Assembly: GCA_944321875.1 (NCBI GenBank)
Contig: CALUMX010000009.1
Span: forward strand, 1 to 64,000
Direction: 5' to 3'
DNA: 64,000 nucleotides
Source of the DNA: an uncultured Muribaculaceae bacterium
Lineage (GTDB): Bacteria; Bacteroidota; Bacteroidia; Bacteroidales; Muribaculaceae
The notes below the pieces were generated by a model. That model saw only the letters and a list, made by a program, of their open reading frames with translations, was not told the origin of the DNA and searched no databases. Positions 53,516 through 60,949 of this stretch are shown one piece after another. Made by a program: the position numbers and the translations under genes. How positions within the stretch are numbered: the stretch's first letter is position 1; the number at the start of each line of letters is the position of its first letter.

Positions 53516-53544
53516 TTTGTTTTTAATACTTTTTTGTAATTTTG
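53516..53544 (+). promoter_or_regulatory. Promoter (TTTG-N17-TAATTTTG) for the AT-rich block
   Basis: TTTG at 53516-53519 and TAATTTTG at 53537-53544 are 17 bp apart, slightly short. The next start is about 87 bp downstream. Confidence 0.55.
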
Positions 53545-53631
53545 TGGAAAAGGGGAATCCCCAATGGAATATTATTGAGGATTTTAAGTAATGTGGAACA
53601 TATTTATTGTATAATTACCAAAACCATGATT

Positions 53632-54198
53632 ATGAAACGAATCTTTATTGTTTTAATTGTCCTTTTTTCGGTTATTAGTGTGATGGCTCAGGAACACCTT
53701 TCATTTAAAGGCATTCCTATCGAAGGGAGTATAAGCGACTTTAGTCGGAAGCTAAAGTCTAAAGGAATGACTTTGACTAGAAAGGAAGGAAATTATTGGT
53801 TTTTTTCAGGAGATTTTATTGGACGGAAAGCAACAGTGTTGGTCGCTACAGCCGATGGAAAAAATGTTTTTAAGGTAGGTACTTTTTTTGATCCGAGTGG
53901 GGAATGGAATACGCTTGTTGATACCTACAACTATTGTAAAGATTTGTATACTCGTAAATACGGACAGCCTATAGCTTCTAGAGAAATGAATCCAGCTCTT
54001 TCTGATTCCAATACGGCTTTGATGCAGGAAGTGTATCAAGGTACAGTGGTCTATTTCAGTGCGTGGGAGGTTACAGGTGGTGCGATTGAACTTTCGATTG
54101 GAAAGTCTTCCGGTTTATATGAGGGTATGGTGGCGATTATTTATCGTGACGCTCAAAATGCGGAAGTCAAAATGCAAGAAGATTTGAATGACATTTAG
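53632..54198 (+). CDS. Hypothetical secreted protein in the AT-rich block
   Basis: No family recognised with certainty. The 188-residue protein has a signal peptide (about residues 1-19, ending ISVMAQ), followed by HLSFKGIPIEGSISDFSRKL, a common start of small Bacteroidota exported proteins, and a mixed alpha/beta body. I chose ATG at 53632 for the signal sequence over the ATG two codons before. The gene is AT-rich, unlike those before 53.3 kb. It precedes a lipoprotein gene by about 115 bp. Confidence 0.75.
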   Translation: MKRIFIVLIVLFSVISVMAQEHLSFKGIPIEGSISDFSRKLKSKGMTLTRKEGNYWFFSGDFIGRKATVLVATADGKNVFKVGTFFDPSGEWNTLVDTYNYCKDLYTRKYGQPIASREMNPALSDSNTALMQEVYQGTVVYFSAWEVTGGAIELSIGKSSGLYEGMVAIIYRDAQNAEVKMQEDLNDI

Positions 54199-54314
54199 AA
54201 TGCAGCAGTATGTTTATTGATTAAATACTACAAATTCAAAATTGTTGTCGGTATTTTATTGATTTTAAAAGAAGTAGGCCAATTCTTGTGTTTTATATTA
54301 AATTTTCATATGCT

Positions 54315-54737
54315 ATGAAGAGTGTTATGTTACCGCTGTTATTTTGCATCTTACTGTCGGTTGGAGGTTGTGCTGAAAAGGAATCAAAGTTGGAAGTATC
54401 GGAAAAAATATCTGAGCAGTTAGTGCAGGTATCTGATATGGAGCGATATAAACTTTTTCCAACACAGAATTTGTGGACCTTTATTAAGCTAGATACACAA
54501 ACAGGTCAAATGTGGCAACTGCAGTATAGTGTAAATGATAAAAGTGAGCGTTTGGAATATGACCTTAATCCTTATCCTCTGATTACTGATAAACAGGAGA
54601 AAGTCAATGGACGTTTTGAACTTTACCCGACTCAGAATATCTATAACTTTATTTTGCTTGATCAAATAGATGGTAAAACATGGCAGGTCCAGTGGGCGAT
54701 TGAAGAGGAAAATCGTGTGGTTTTACCTATCAGATAA
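54315..54737 (+). CDS. Lipoprotein with duplicated YPTQN-W.Q motif
   Basis: The 140-residue protein has a lipobox SVGGC and two related segments of about 35 residues: RYKLFPTQNLWTFIKLDTQT followed by GQMWQLQYSV, and RFELYPTQNIYNFILLDQID followed by GKTWQVQWAI. Each ends in a W-Q-x-Q strand, suggesting a pair of beta-hairpin repeats. Function is unknown. It lies 82 bp upstream of the helicase gene. Confidence 0.78.
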   Translation: MKSVMLPLLFCILLSVGGCAEKESKLEVSEKISEQLVQVSDMERYKLFPTQNLWTFIKLDTQTGQMWQLQYSVNDKSERLEYDLNPYPLITDKQEKVNGRFELYPTQNIYNFILLDQIDGKTWQVQWAIEEENRVVLPIR

Positions 54738-54819: not shown

Positions 54820-57420
54820 ATGCAGTTAATAATTATTGTTGTTATTTGTCTTGGCGTCATTGTGGCGGTTGGAATTGCTGTAGTACGGATGCGACTTAAA
54901 AAACAGGCTAAGGAATTATCAGATCGGCTGAGTCACATTGCTGCGTATCGCGACAAATCCAATACGGAGCAGGTTGAGTCGAAGGACGTTGTGTCAACTG
55001 ATATTCCGGCGGCTCTAAGTAGCTGTTTTGAGGGGAGGATAATATCAGCTGCTCAGGAAAAGGAATTTACTGATTATTATTCTCTGTATTTTCAGGAAGT
55101 CTATCCTCTTCTTCGAAAACTTGATATGTATAAGATTGCTCTGTCTGATACACTTTCTGGTCTGGTGTCTGATTTTGAACATATTAGTGAATTTGTTAGA
55201 CAACATAACAACGGAGTAATTAATAGGTTGCTCGATATACACAAAGATTTTTTTGACCATTGTCTGAAATATCCGTTGGATAGTCAGCAGAGACGTTCTA
55301 TTGTGTCAGAAGAAGATAATTGTTTAGTAGTTAGTAGTGCTGGTAGCGGCAAGACATCTTCAATTGTGGGAAAAGTCAAGTATCTTATCGAAATTAAGGC
55401 TGTTGATCCTAGGAAAATATTGCTGATAAGCTATACAAATAAAGCGGCTGCTGAGCTTACTGACAGAATGGCGACTGATGGATTAAGAGGTTATACGTTT
55501 CATAAGTTGGCTTTGGATATCATAGGGAAAGCAACAGGTGTCAAACCGTCGGTCTGTGACAATACAGATGCCTTGTTTATAGATATATATCATAATCTAT
55601 TGACAGAACCTGGTTTTAAGAAGAATGTCTTGGAATATTTCGTGGATTATCCGGTTAATGAGGCTGACTGGGAACAGCATAAGAACGAAAGACGAGAACA
55701 GTTGTCAGAACTAAAATCTGTGCAATTGAAAGCTATGTTTCCTGATATGGATGGTAAAACAATTTATGTTAGGAGCGAGCAGGAGCAGAAACTCTGTTTT
55801 ATCTTGTCGTCACTTGGGGTGAGATTTAGGTATGAAGAACCGTATGAGCATCAGTTAGCAGATGAAATGCATTCCCAATATTGTCCGGATTTCTCAATAT
55901 ACTTTGAGCAAAAGGGTGTAACTCGGCGTATTTATTTGGAACATTTTGGAGTGGATGAACACAGTCTTGTTCCAGCTTGGTTCGCAAAGGATAAGAATAT
56001 AACATATGAAGAAGCTAACCAGAAATACAATGATGGTATAACATGGAAGAAAGCAGCTCACGAAAAGTTCGGAACACAATTATTAGTAACATCAAGTGCT
56101 GATTTCTATCAGTCAGATATAAAAGCTAAGCTTCGGAAATTATTAAAAGATGCAGGTGTGCCGATTCAGGAAAAGACAGCAGAGGAATTGTATGATTTGG
56201 TTTTGCCCAAGGGTAGTAAGCAGGAAAAAGCTTTTGTGAGGCTTGTTGTGACTTTTGTGACATTGGTAAAATCAAGTTGCAAGCCGATTGCTGATATTTT
56301 GGAACAAGCAGACAATGCGGGAGACAAGAGAAGCGGGTTTATTATCCGAAATATATTTCTTCCTGTATATGAGCGTTATGTTGAGGCGTTAAGAAACCGG
56401 GGACAGATTGATTTTACAGATGCAATATTGCAGGCGACTGAGATTTGTAGGACATCGCATCCGGTTGCATATAACTATATAATCGTGGATGAATTCCAGG
56501 ATATATCGGTTGACCGCTACAATTTCTTGAAAGTGTTGAGAGAGGGGAACCCTCCTGCAAAGTTGTATTGTGTTGGAGATGATTGGCAGTCCATATACCG
56601 CTTTTCAGGAAGTGATATGTCACTGTTCAATCAATTTCCTGACTATTTCGGACCAACCGAAATAAACAAAATTGAGACAACATACAGATTTGGAGAGCCT
56701 TTGGTATCGTTGTCTTCTCAGTTTATCCAGCGTAATGGCGCCCAGATAAGAAAGAACATACATCCGTTCAATCCAGACGTGAGAACAGAATTGGAATTTT
56801 GTTCGTATGATAGGCGGGATTACTGTAAGACAATCGGCCAGCTTATTTCTTCTCTTCCTCCAGATAAATCGGTCTTTTTATTGGGTCGCTATTCATTTGA
56901 TGATTATTATTTATCTTTTATGTACCAATGCATAAAGGAGGGAGACAAATTCTACTATGTGATAAGCGGGCGTAAAATCGAGTTCTTAACTGTGCATAAG
57001 TCAAAGGGACTTGAGGCTGATTATGTAGTACTTCTGCAGTGCAATAAAGACACTTATGGTTTCCCATCGCTTATTAGTGACGATCCCGTATTGAATTATG
57101 TGTTGACAAGAGGAGACCAATTTCCGTGCGGAGAAGAACGCCGATTGTTTTATGTGGCGATAACAAGAGCCAAAATCAAAACGTTTGTGCTTTATGATAG
57201 GCGTTTCCCTTCTGTCTTTGTGAATGAGTTCTTACATCCAGAGAAAGTATCGGTGGAAAGTTATGTGAAGCATCCTAATGCCAATAAAAGATGGACGGAT
57301 AAGGCTGATCAGTTCTTGTTGAAGTTGGATAGTGAAGGTAAAAGTGTGAAGTACATAGCGGCAAAGATGGGAAGAAGTCAGACTTCTATAGTGATGCGAT
57401 TGAATAAACTCAAGCAGTAA
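54820..57420 (+). CDS. Membrane-anchored UvrD-like helicase with predicted embedded nuclease and C-terminal HTH
   Basis: The 866-residue protein has an N-terminal transmembrane helix (about residues 3-23), then a UvrD/HelD-like SF1 helicase: Walker A AGSGKT at 174-179, motif Ia ISYTNKAAAEL, Walker B VDEFQD at 556-561, motif III GDDWQSIYRFSG and motif VI RRLFYVAITRA (774-784). Between domains 1A and 1B there is an insert around residues 300-420 with the likely PD-(D/E)XK core: Glu320/Glu322, PDF at 356-358 and Glu374 in YLEHFG. The C-terminal 40 residues (WTDKADQFLLKL, AAKMGRSQTSIVMRLNKL) form an HTH-like domain. The AT-rich composition suggests acquisition. Nuclease activity is inference; other SF1 helicases with inserts are possible. 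Confidence 0.82.
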   Translation: MQLIIIVVICLGVIVAVGIAVVRMRLKKQAKELSDRLSHIAAYRDKSNTEQVESKDVVSTDIPAALSSCFEGRIISAAQEKEFTDYYSLYFQEVYPLLRKLDMYKIALSDTLSGLVSDFEHISEFVRQHNNGVINRLLDIHKDFFDHCLKYPLDSQQRRSIVSEEDNCLVVSSAGSGKTSSIVGKVKYLIEIKAVDPRKILLISYTNKAAAELTDRMATDGLRGYTFHKLALDIIGKATGVKPSVCDNTDALFIDIYHNLLTEPGFKKNVLEYFVDYPVNEADWEQHKNERREQLSELKSVQLKAMFPDMDGKTIYVRSEQEQKLCFILSSLGVRFRYEEPYEHQLADEMHSQYCPDFSIYFEQKGVTRRIYLEHFGVDEHSLVPAWFAKDKNITYEEANQKYNDGITWKKAAHEKFGTQLLVTSSADFYQSDIKAKLRKLLKDAGVPIQEKTAEELYDLVLPKGSKQEKAFVRLVVTFVTLVKSSCKPIADILEQADNAGDKRSGFIIRNIFLPVYERYVEALRNRGQIDFTDAILQATEICRTSHPVAYNYIIVDEFQDISVDRYNFLKVLREGNPPAKLYCVGDDWQSIYRFSGSDMSLFNQFPDYFGPTEINKIETTYRFGEPLVSLSSQFIQRNGAQIRKNIHPFNPDVRTELEFCSYDRRDYCKTIGQLISSLPPDKSVFLLGRYSFDDYYLSFMYQCIKEGDKFYYVISGRKIEFLTVHKSKGLEADYVVLLQCNKDTYGFPSLISDDPVLNYVLTRGDQFPCGEERRLFYVAITRAKIKTFVLYDRRFPSVFVNEFLHPEKVSVESYVKHPNANKRWTDKADQFLLKLDSEGKSVKYIAAKMGRSQTSIVMRLNKLKQ

Positions 57421-57624: not shown

Positions 57625-58827
57625 ATGAAAAACATGGTTTTAGCGTTGGTTTGCGTGCTGGTGGCGTTGGTGACGCAGGCTCAGACTAAGGATGTGCCGA
57701 CCGGGGCGATTCCGTTTATTTTTGACAGTCATTTGTATCTGCAGGTGACGTTGAATGACTCTGTTCCGGTCACTGTCATCTATGACACGGGTGCGGACTT
57801 TCTGTATATGGATGAGGATTATCTGGCGTTGAACCGTCTTCAGGATGCGTTCGGAAAAAAAGGCAAGGCCAAGATGGGTGGTGCCGGGAACAGCGACCCG
57901 AAGTCCGTTGATATATTCATTGAGCCGGTGAAGATTAGGTGTGGTGAAATGACTTATCAAAACAGGCCGACTCCTGTCATCCGGTTGCGCGATATTCTCG
58001 GACGGTACGTTGACGGGTTGTTGGGAAATACGCACTTGCTGAGTGCGCCGCTGGAGATTAATTTCAGTAAAGGCTACCTGCGACAGCTGGATGAGCCGGT
58101 TTCAGCAGATATGCTTGACGGTTACAGAAAGCTTGACGTGCGGTTTGAGGATAACCGCATCGATGTCAAGGCGCGTCTGCAAATCGATTCCCTGAATGTG
58201 GTGGAAGGCTGGTTCAGAATGGATTTGGGCTGCGGTTCTGCCATCGTACTCACCAATGAGACGGCATCCTCGCTTGTGCTTAACGATGTGCCTAAGGCTT
58301 ATTTCTCGACGCAGGCCGGCGGTGTGGGTGGCGGCTCGGACGATGTCTCGGTAAGGGCGGCTCGGTTTGAAATGGCAGGTACGCTCCAAAATCTTGTCAT
58401 AGACTATTCGCTGAACGAGAAAGGGGCTTTGTCATCGGGCAGACCTTATGTCGGTCTCATCGGCAATGAGATATGGTCGCTGTACGATATCGTTTTAGAC
58501 CCGGAGAATTCCGCGGTATGGGTGAAGCGTAACGGTAATGTCGGGTCTTATTCAAAGTCCTCGACTACCCACATGGCAGTTTTCGACCGTACCGACATTT
58601 GTGACGGGTGGATTGTGAACGGTCTTTACAAAGATGGTATTGCCGAGCAGGCGGGCATCGAGATAGGTGACGTAATTATTGCCATTAACGGCCGGCCGGT
58701 CAAGGAAATAACATGGGAAGAACAGCGACGTGGATTAGGACTGACTGGCGAGACAAAATATACGGTAAGGAAGGCTGATGGAAGAATTGCCGTCTATACG
58801 CTCTTTATCCGTGACCAGATTATTTGA
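57625..58827 (+). CDS. Retropepsin-like aspartic protease with PDZ domain
   Basis: The 400-residue protein has a signal peptide (about residues 1-19) and two aspartyl protease-like halves: the N-terminal one with VTVIYDTGADFLYMDE (canonical DTG), the second with FRMDLGCGSAIVLTNE (DLG, where a DTG or DSG is expected). A PDZ-like domain follows (about residues 320-400), with GWIVNGLYKDGIAEQAGIEIGD and IIAINGRPV. This matches the Bacteroidota aspartyl protease-PDZ proteins (PF13650-type). It probably acts in the periplasm; substrates are unknown. Confidence 0.88.
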   Translation: MKNMVLALVCVLVALVTQAQTKDVPTGAIPFIFDSHLYLQVTLNDSVPVTVIYDTGADFLYMDEDYLALNRLQDAFGKKGKAKMGGAGNSDPKSVDIFIEPVKIRCGEMTYQNRPTPVIRLRDILGRYVDGLLGNTHLLSAPLEINFSKGYLRQLDEPVSADMLDGYRKLDVRFEDNRIDVKARLQIDSLNVVEGWFRMDLGCGSAIVLTNETASSLVLNDVPKAYFSTQAGGVGGGSDDVSVRAARFEMAGTLQNLVIDYSLNEKGALSSGRPYVGLIGNEIWSLYDIVLDPENSAVWVKRNGNVGSYSKSSTTHMAVFDRTDICDGWIVNGLYKDGIAEQAGIEIGDVIIAINGRPVKEITWEEQRRGLGLTGETKYTVRKADGRIAVYTLFIRDQII

Positions 58828-59279: not shown

Positions 59280-60116
59280 TTAGTCTGAAAGAATATTCCA
59301 TGTAATGCAGTTGAGTGCACCGCCTTCGTTGGCTATTCCGGTGATGGAAATGGAAAAAATACGGTCTGCGTAGTCCGGGAAAAGTTGGGTGATTTGTTGG
59401 TGTGCCTGGGCATCTTCTTCGGCGTTGAAGGCCGGAATGACAATCAATTGGCTTGTTTGCAGATAGTTGATGTAAGCCCAGCTGTGCCGGTGTGGGCGTG
59501 ACGTGTTGTAGGAAAGGGTGTGAACATTGAACTTCTTGGAAAGTTGATTGGCTATTTTGTCGGCAGAAGCAGGGTCGAAGTCATAATAGTTGGTCATGAG
59601 AACTTCTTTGTCTCTGATAAAACGTACAACTCCGTCTGCATGTCCGTATTTCTCCATTTTATCCCAGTAAATGAGCAAAACTTCACACTGGAAAAGAGAT
59701 TCAAGTTGAGCTATAAGTTCTACCTTGGAATAGTTCCGTCTGTTTTCTTCCACCACCTTTTCTGTCATAATAACGCAATCGTCACATTTAATGACGTTGC
59801 CGCCGTCAATTATGATGTCCGTTTTTATGGTTTCGATACCGAGGTCCTGCAATGTTTGCGTAGGATCTGTAATGTAGGGAATGTCGATAGAGTTATTTCT
59901 TAGATAATCAGGGAAATAGTAATATTGAATAAAGCGGTTTCGGCTTGTCTGTATGGGCATATAGTCACGGCACCAACTGTCATTGGTGTGTAGTAATAAT
60001 TTGCAGGGAACGTTATGCGACTTCAGCAGTCGGATGATGCGCTGGGTGATACGGGGATGCTGCTGGAAAGTTTGTTTGGAAATGAATACTGTATCTGTCT
60101 GTGCGTCGGTTATCAT
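59280..60116 (-). CDS. Agmatine/peptidyl-arginine deiminase family protein, short form
   Basis: The 278-residue protein shows the guanidino-modifying fold: NDSWCRDYMPI with the binding Asp, IIIDGGNVIKCDDCVIMTEKV, the catalytic-His motif KYGHADGVVRF and the catalytic Cys in GGALNCITWN (Asn replaces the His of the usual HC). Family agmatine deiminases run about 340-370 residues; this lacks the N-terminal WEPHEAVWL block. It may deiminate agmatine or another guanidino substrate. It begins 4 bp inside the preceding gene (ATGA), a coupled pair. Confidence 0.8.
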   Translation of the reverse strand: MITDAQTDTVFISKQTFQQHPRITQRIIRLLKSHNVPCKLLLHTNDSWCRDYMPIQTSRNRFIQYYYFPDYLRNNSIDIPYITDPTQTLQDLGIETIKTDIIIDGGNVIKCDDCVIMTEKVVEENRRNYSKVELIAQLESLFQCEVLLIYWDKMEKYGHADGVVRFIRDKEVLMTNYYDFDPASADKIANQLSKKFNVHTLSYNTSRPHRHSWAYINYLQTSQLIVIPAFNAEEDAQAHQQITQLFPDYADRIFSISITGIANEGGALNCITWNILSD

Positions 60117-60709
60117 ATTAAGTCGGATTTGTCTATACCGAAACGCCATTCACGCGGTTTGTCTTCTCCGTCAACGATAGGTATATTGTGACGGGGGCCT
60201 TGTGTAAGACGTTTATTCGAATAGTTGTCAACGGGTGCATCTATCCACGTTATGGATAGGCCGTCGCCTCCAATAAATGAGGCATTTCCAAACAAATCTT
60301 CTCTTAGATAGGTTGGGTTGTAGTTCTTACTTTTGTTGTTCGTATAGGTTTCTTTATTGTCAACATACTTATAACCGCGGATAAGAAACGAGGCTCTAAA
60401 CTTTTTCAGCTCATTTTCGAATGTTACGTCAACACCGGAGTTATGAGGATGGAATGAACCGATAGGGAAATATGGGACATCACCCTGGTGATACATTTTT
60501 GGTTCATGTATGCCATCGGCTGTCTCGGAGTGGAAATAGAATTCAACATCGAGAATGTAAATTTTATAGGAGTTGTTGATAAGAAAATATCCACCGTAAA
60601 TGGCCGCTTGGGCTATTTTCTTAAATTCAACGGTTAATTGGTCGATATCGGCCTTGTCAGGATTGAATGAGAGTAAAAGTTCAGGTAATGTTTGCATAGC
60701 TAAATCCAT
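60113..60709 (-). CDS. Hypothetical protein, possibly with an AAG-like fold
   Basis: The 198-residue protein has no secure match. Its order of motifs loosely resembles the methylpurine-DNA glycosylase (AAG) fold: KIYILDVEFYFHSE, then MYHQGDVPYFPIGSFHPHNS, VDVTFE, RASFLIRGYKYV, and LTQGPRHNIP. The link is weak. I chose ATG at 60709, close behind the -7 box; ATG 60697 is possible. It runs directly into the deiminase gene with a 4-bp overlap, a two-gene cassette. Confidence 0.6.
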   Translation of the reverse strand: MDLAMQTLPELLLSFNPDKADIDQLTVEFKKIAQAAIYGGYFLINNSYKIYILDVEFYFHSETADGIHEPKMYHQGDVPYFPIGSFHPHNSGVDVTFENELKKFRASFLIRGYKYVDNKETYTNNKSKNYNPTYLREDLFGNASFIGGDGLSITWIDAPVDNYSNKRLTQGPRHNIPIVDGEDKPREWRFGIDKSDLI

Positions 60710-60714
60710 TTTTT

Positions 60715-60777
60715 CAAAGATAGTGAAAGGCGGGAGTAAAGAAAACAAGTTCACTTGATTTTTTATGCCGAGCCGCA
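60715..60777 (-). repeat. Hairpin-promoter module, copy D (minus strand)
   Basis: Read on the minus strand it has GCGGCTCGGCATAAAAAATC, a CAAG..CTTG hairpin, a diverged GC-poor spacer and CGCCTTTCACTATCTTTG, with the -7 box at 60715-60722. It points into the 60709 start. Confidence 0.8.
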
Positions 60778-60949
60778 TCTGATATTATCTAATATAGGAA
60801 AAACGAGAGTAAGATATTTAGTATCCTAAATAGAGAATAATTCGGTCAGTAAGGTGGTGTTCCGGTGATTTTGTCAATGCTTTTTCTGAGTGTCATCAGT
60901 TTGATGAAAATCAAAAAACATTATGGCCTAATTTATAGAACTTGCCTTA

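Follow-up and report, generated by a model that had tools for sequence, protein, structure and literature searches.

The union of a nuclease and a helicase in a single defence protein has been described for Hna, a single-gene system in which an SF2 helicase carries a C-terminal PD-(D/E)XK domain (PMC13381803), and for Nhi, a single-gene nuclease-helicase (PMC12904381). An SF1 helicase of the UvrD-like type also serves defence in Gabija, where GajB itself has no nuclease and needs GajA. The E. coli DNA helicase IV (HelD, NF008276) is the best profile match to the protein considered here, which is encoded in a 64,000-nucleotide stretch of DNA (contig CALUMX010000009.1, hereafter the window) from an uncultured Muribaculaceae bacterium. 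The two share the SF1A core, whereas HelD lacks a nuclease insert, has a Helicase_IV_N domain in place of the membrane helix and is shorter (684 positions).

Like Hna and Nhi, the window protein joins a nuclease domain to a helicase in one chain, but its helicase family differs from that of Hna and its architecture from both; the Nhi profile was not among the best 25 of the 53 PADLOC families that matched it. It shares with GajB the use of a UvrD-like SF1 helicase, whereas GajA is absent at the window locus, no GajA-like gene being found beside the reading frame. The GajB and RTasHel profiles of PADLOC also matched the protein, but this was put down to general UvrD homology, because the UvrD of a random control stretch matched both far better. 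A RecB/AddA type was also rejected, the nuclease domain being internal and no such C-terminal domain being found in Pfam. No PADLOC model covers the window protein as a system, and no helicase IV with an embedded nuclease was found described in the profile library or in the literature searched, most subscription journals being outside that search. Its principle is best read as that of a single-gene nuclease-helicase defence, without assignment to any named system; Hna, Nhi and Gabija share the principle with a differing architecture or helicase family.

Architecture of the helicase and its inserted domain

The initial annotation, made from sequence alone, had proposed a single 866-residue protein with a helicase, a nuclease-like core, a membrane anchor and an HTH tail. 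The reading frame, which begins with ATG, and the numbering of D357 and E374 were confirmed, and the following features were assigned.

54820..57420, + strand: membrane-anchored SF1A helicase (helicase IV-like) with an embedded PD-(D/E)XK nuclease domain as predicted from Pfam, family profiles, alignment and AlphaFold, 866 aa
54826..54891, + strand: predicted N-terminal transmembrane helix, approximately residues 3-24, followed by RMRLKK (sequence; model)
55339..55356, + strand: Walker A, AGSGKT, residues 174-179 (invariant or nearly so in the alignment of 28)
55756..56157, + strand: inserted PD-(D/E)XK (Vsr/EDxHD-like) nuclease domain as modelled, residues ~313-446, in helicase domain 1B (AlphaFold, VIA-align)
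55783..55785, + strand: E322, acidic residue of helix A, putative metal site (28/28)
55885..55890, + strand: P356-D357, PD motif (28/28)
55939..55944, + strand: E374-H375, third core strand, replacing (D/E)XK (E 28/28, H 27/28)
56047..56049, + strand: K410, on the following helix, candidate displaced catalytic lysine (28/28)
56476..57228, + strand: helicase motifs II to VI (DEFQD, GDDWQSIYRFSG, HKSKGLE, EERRLFYVAITRA) (Pfam, family profile, alignment)
57277..57417, + strand: possible C-terminal HTH/SANT-like tail, approximately residues 820-866, weak (Pfam HTH_36 E 0.11; low pLDDT; GRSxTSI motif)

The helicase portion matched UvrD-helicase (PF00580, E 2e-38) and UvrD_C (PF13361, E 9.5e-17) in Pfam, and the top named family was DNA helicase IV at 319.7 bits, below that family's own cut-off of 543 bits, with Rep at 139 and PcrA at 137. 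The complete set of SF1A motifs proposed earlier was borne out, the motifs being invariant across an alignment of 28 full-length relatives with identities down to 24%. In the full-length AlphaFold2 model (mean pLDDT 83), the proposed anchor corresponds to a helix spanning residues 2-37 whose first half is hydrophobic and is followed by RMRLKK, and by the positive-inside rule the part C-terminal to these basic residues would be cytosolic. Such a hydrophobic helix with basic residues is common to many relatives, while in two of them (L058 and L045) it is replaced by Helicase_IV_N (PF12462), a domain that Pfam did not detect in the window protein. The SANT/HTH module fared less well: its GRSxTSI motif is kept among near Bacteroidales relatives, but the Pfam matches reached only E 0.11-0.22 and pLDDT was approximately 45-69. 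Across the family, the HTH-like tail belongs to the Bacteroidales branch, several relatives end in topoisomerase-type zinc ribbons, and the C-terminus of one (L154) has a Myb/SANT-like WTEEEE start.

The insert of approximately 130 residues within domain 1B had been flagged for its E..PDF..E(H) pattern, and structure prediction returned a PD-(D/E)XK fold rather than an unrelated domain without a plausible metal site. Modelled alone, it reached a pLDDT of 86 (approximately 95 in the core), with helix A at 320-331, strands at 335-338, 358-364 and 367-376, a helix at 396-417, a strand at 421-425 and a helix at 434-444; this helix-strand-strand-strand-helix-strand succession is the PD-(D/E)XK order. 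With VIA-align, the closest structure was the EDxHD homing endonuclease I-Bth0305I (Z 10.3 over 96 residues, 2.4 A), followed by Vsr (9.4 and 8.8), TnsA (8.2), Bax1 (8.1), Can2 (6.4) and Hjc (6.0) in a match list composed mostly of PD-(D/E)XK enzymes. A plain Foldseek search with the insert alone gave nothing at E <= 0.001 (best E 0.04, with restriction enzymes at the top), so that the clear matches come from the VIA-align second look and families outside that list remain candidates.

Vsr, I-Bth0305I, TnsA, Bax1 and Hjc (Z 6.0-10.3) also place their acidic residues on helix A and the core strands; unlike Vsr-type nucleases, the window domain sits inside a helicase, has E-H-F/Y in place of ExK and is too divergent in sequence for convincing detection by Pfam. 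E322, Y338, E339, Y354, P356, D357, F358, E374, Y403 and K410 are invariant in the 28 relatives and H375 is present in 27, so that the key residues of the insert vary no more than Walker A, DEFQD, GDDWQ and the arginine motifs. The classical (D/E)XK lysine is missing. In some PD-(D/E)XK members the catalytic lysine is displaced, and here K410, invariant and carried by the next helix, may stand in for it. Overall, the modelled insert is confidently assigned to the PD-(D/E)XK fold with invariant acidic residues, and the window protein very probably cuts DNA as well as unwinding it.

Window locus, distribution and mobile carriage

The helicase gene lies in an AT-rich block, as had been noted, with a GC content of 0.39 against 0.516 for the window. 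Directly upstream are the small exported proteins already remarked upon (GC 0.38 and 0.36).

53542..54198, + strand: small exported protein of family c2, likely start near 53626 (upstream of the helicase in 14 of 36 loci; also occurs without the helicase)
54288..54737, + strand: small lipoprotein of family c1, likely start 54315, lipobox VGGC (upstream of the helicase in 17 of 36 loci; also occurs without the helicase)

The c1 protein contains a repeated TQNxxxFIxLDxxxGxxWQVQ motif. Since c2 and c1 form an adjacent pair without the helicase in two other genomes (G026 and G008), they are not dedicated partners, and a dedicated role for them was dropped; they are also missing beside many relatives, which agrees with the stand-alone function suggested initially. 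Directly downstream of the helicase, a secreted aspartyl-protease-like protein with a PDZ domain is encoded at 57625-58827 and was not found in the three congeners. Further on are a peptidyl-arginine deiminase/agmatine deiminase-like gene at 59280-60149 (PF04371, E 2e-25) and an adjoining reading frame at 60113-60778 with no Pfam match.

In the window, the helicase and the two exported proteins form a block that stands alone in the chromosome. No integrase or relaxase gene accompanies it, sequence similarity does not extend beyond the coding sequences, no element end was found and the direct repeats surrounding the block appear chance-like. All three congeners have the syntenic DUF1573-MeaB site without the block; the copy in genome G002 lies elsewhere, near a valyl-tRNA synthetase-like gene.

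The helicase gene is accessory and sporadic: its strong form was found in 3 of the 61 genomes searched (its own included), it is present in one of three congeners and absent from most of the family, and the insert domain was detected in 23 of 392 Bacteroidota genomes, in 12-13 of them strongly. Proteins 75-80% identical were found in records labelled Bacteroides, Alistipes, Coprobacter, Paraprevotella, Barnesiella and Phocaeicola, and relatives also occur on plasmids. In many Bacteroidales relatives, the helicase gene comes last in an integrative mobilizable element of approximately 10.8 kb that we take to be NBU-like and that also encodes a tyrosine integrase, a small HTH-like gene, a DUF5906/VapE-like gene, a Toprim/CHC2 primase and a Mob_Pre relaxase. 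Approximately 195 bp past the helicase stop codon, the conserved sequence stops sharply at ...TTTTCCAGAATTAC and gives way to unrelated host DNA. One such element of 10.76 kb is 99.9% identical between an Alistipes-labelled record (L015) and a Bacteroides mediterraneensis-labelled one (L016). No flanking exact direct repeats of at least 13 nt and no tRNA targets were found for the elements in L017, L032, L020 and L023. Matches labelled as phage in human gut scaffolds lie on short unverified contigs and were not counted as proof of phage carriage. Combined with the defence-gene neighbours described below, these results set the homologues apart from universal core genes, which was the alternative raised when the protein was first annotated.

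Defence-gene association and the shared nuclease module

An even sample of the phylum yielded 11 relatives with usable 20 kb surroundings, four of these loci coming from one genus. Restriction-modification, BREX (BrxL, PglZ, PglX), ThiF/multiubiquitin or AbiEii genes, a choice that partly reflects our reading of tool names, were present in 7 of the 11 loci but in none of 8 stretches drawn at random from the same genomes (Fisher p 0.0065); with AbiEii left out, the count was 6 of the 11 loci vs. 0 of 8 (p 0.017). This enrichment beside defence genes is indicative, given the small sample. A PADLOC scan of all 121 neighbours detected BrxL, PglX, PglZ and type IIG, II and III enzymes, whereas, for the 121 proteins of the random stretches, the 25 families listed were those of a UvrD-type helicase and general regulators only.

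One relative lies inside a BREX locus, with BrxL and PglZ on one side and PglX on the other (L172, 4144-18521); BREX systems are described as seemingly lacking a nuclease (PMC9122589). At other sampled loci, the helicase lies beside a cytosine methylase, accompanied by an HATPase protein in one case and by Vsr in another; further neighbours are a type III methylase with a PLD protein, multiubiquitin with ThiF, type I HsdM/HsdR, and an AbiEii gene. Plasmid relatives adjoin a DUF262 pair, GIY-YIG, multiubiquitin/ThiF, Lit and restriction genes, and in Bacteroides gallinarum (L014) the helicase directly follows an Nhi/AbiO gene (E 4e-170). Many Bacteroidales copies are not among defence genes, and the window copy itself lies outside any defence island. 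On the Acinetobacter seifertii plasmid pAS49-2, a second UvrD protein of 1129 aa with a metallopeptidase-like (HEIGH) N-terminus (L045, 4359-7751, minus strand) shares an island with multiubiquitin/ThiF genes.

Profile comparison additionally matched the insert to the PADLOC defence candidates PDC-S68, PDC-S69 and HEAT_CxxC_PDDEXK, whose nuclease domain is homologous. PDC-S68 is likewise coupled to an SF1 helicase, but in these candidates the domain is either fused C-terminally to a RecD-like helicase or found in small proteins, and none has the helicase IV insert. The weaker insert matches in other genomes of the phylum were PDC-S68 proteins and one DpdF-like helicase: three proteins of approximately 1,220 aa are PDC-S68 (E 1e-234 to 1e-275), with a RecD-like helicase and the nuclease at the C-terminus, and the DpdF-like helicase has the same domain as its tail. 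The domain, with the pattern VRSxxEvxIAN..YEYE..PDF..EH, thus recurs as a C-terminal fusion to these PDC-S68 and DpdF-like helicases (whole reading frames of L157, L158 and L160; L155, 1465-3381, minus strand). The presence of the domain in helicase IV-like, PDC-S68 and DpdF-like proteins indicates one module joined to at least three helicase types.

Proposed function and a possible origin of helicase IV

In phylogenetic trees, the window family and HelD formed one clade against UvrD/Rep/PcrA-type helicases (support 100/100). Both a quick tree and a careful one, from which insert, N-terminal and C-terminal columns were removed, placed the E. coli-type helicase IV within the insert-bearing family, beside L075 (99/97), and a forced single clade of insert-bearing rows was rejected (p-AU 0.0056). 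With HelD represented by two or three sequences on a long branch, this nesting is a lead; if right, helicase IV would have lost the nuclease. It can be suggested tentatively, as a possibility somewhat against the odds, that a widespread mobile defence family of nuclease-helicases, the membrane-anchored window protein among them, gave rise to E. coli DNA helicase IV through domestication and loss of the nuclease. If true, this would give a concrete, testable origin to a long-known enzyme.

As its relatives reside on mobile DNA and among virus-defence genes, one-protein defence is the most likely function, and we infer, with a probability of roughly 0.6, that the window protein acts on its own as a membrane-tethered nuclease-helicase and defends its carrier, be it the cell or the mobile element, against entering or replicating foreign DNA, phage DNA for example. 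The computed basis comprises the architecture, the fold, the invariant putative active site, the sporadic distribution, the mobile carriage and the association with defence genes; the defence role that was originally considered plausible thus gains from the insert fold, the sporadic mobile carriage and the neighbouring genes. The N-terminal helix would tether the protein at the inner face of the inner membrane, and the SF1A motor, judging from its family, would load on single-stranded DNA, a 3' overhang or a fork and translocate 3' to 5'. In SF1A helicases, domain 1B meets the incoming duplex. A nuclease carried on this domain would, by analogy with the family, sit at the fork and cut DNA during unwinding.

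Carriage as mobile-element cargo is compatible with any function that is selectable or selfish, and other roles were weighed. An accessory role in DNA repair or fork processing, in which this relative of helicase IV would resolve damaged or stalled replication intermediates and be mobile through a stress benefit, is in keeping with DNA helicase IV as the best named match, the nesting of the E. coli enzyme in the family and the retention of Helicase_IV_N by some relatives; it is nevertheless unlikely in view of the gene's sporadic, mobile distribution, its enrichment beside defence genes and the recurrence of the same nuclease domain in defence candidates. The terminal position in an integrative mobilizable element, seen in at least a dozen loci, would also suit a helicase of the element's own that processes transfer or replication intermediates. 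That element, however, already has a primase, a VapE-like DUF5906 ATPase and a relaxase, a place before the right end is typical of cargo, and the window copy and most distant relatives are without such element genes, so that a mobility helper appears distinctly improbable. Finally, conservation of the c2-c1-helicase block in many loci, the window included, would be expected of a multi-gene system with the exported proteins, such as envelope entry exclusion coupled to DNA degradation; this is highly improbable, since the pair exists without the helicase, the small proteins c8 and c13 substitute for c2 and c1, and distant relatives have none.

Under the preferred reading of stand-alone defence, the repertoire of bacterial immunity would gain a one-gene family of nuclease-helicases that occurs across phyla and passes between gut Bacteroidales families. 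It would also explain several uncharacterised proteins in defence islands that are annotated as UvrD-helicase domain-containing proteins. Additionally, the coupling of the nuclease to at least three different helicases suggests a general effector module.
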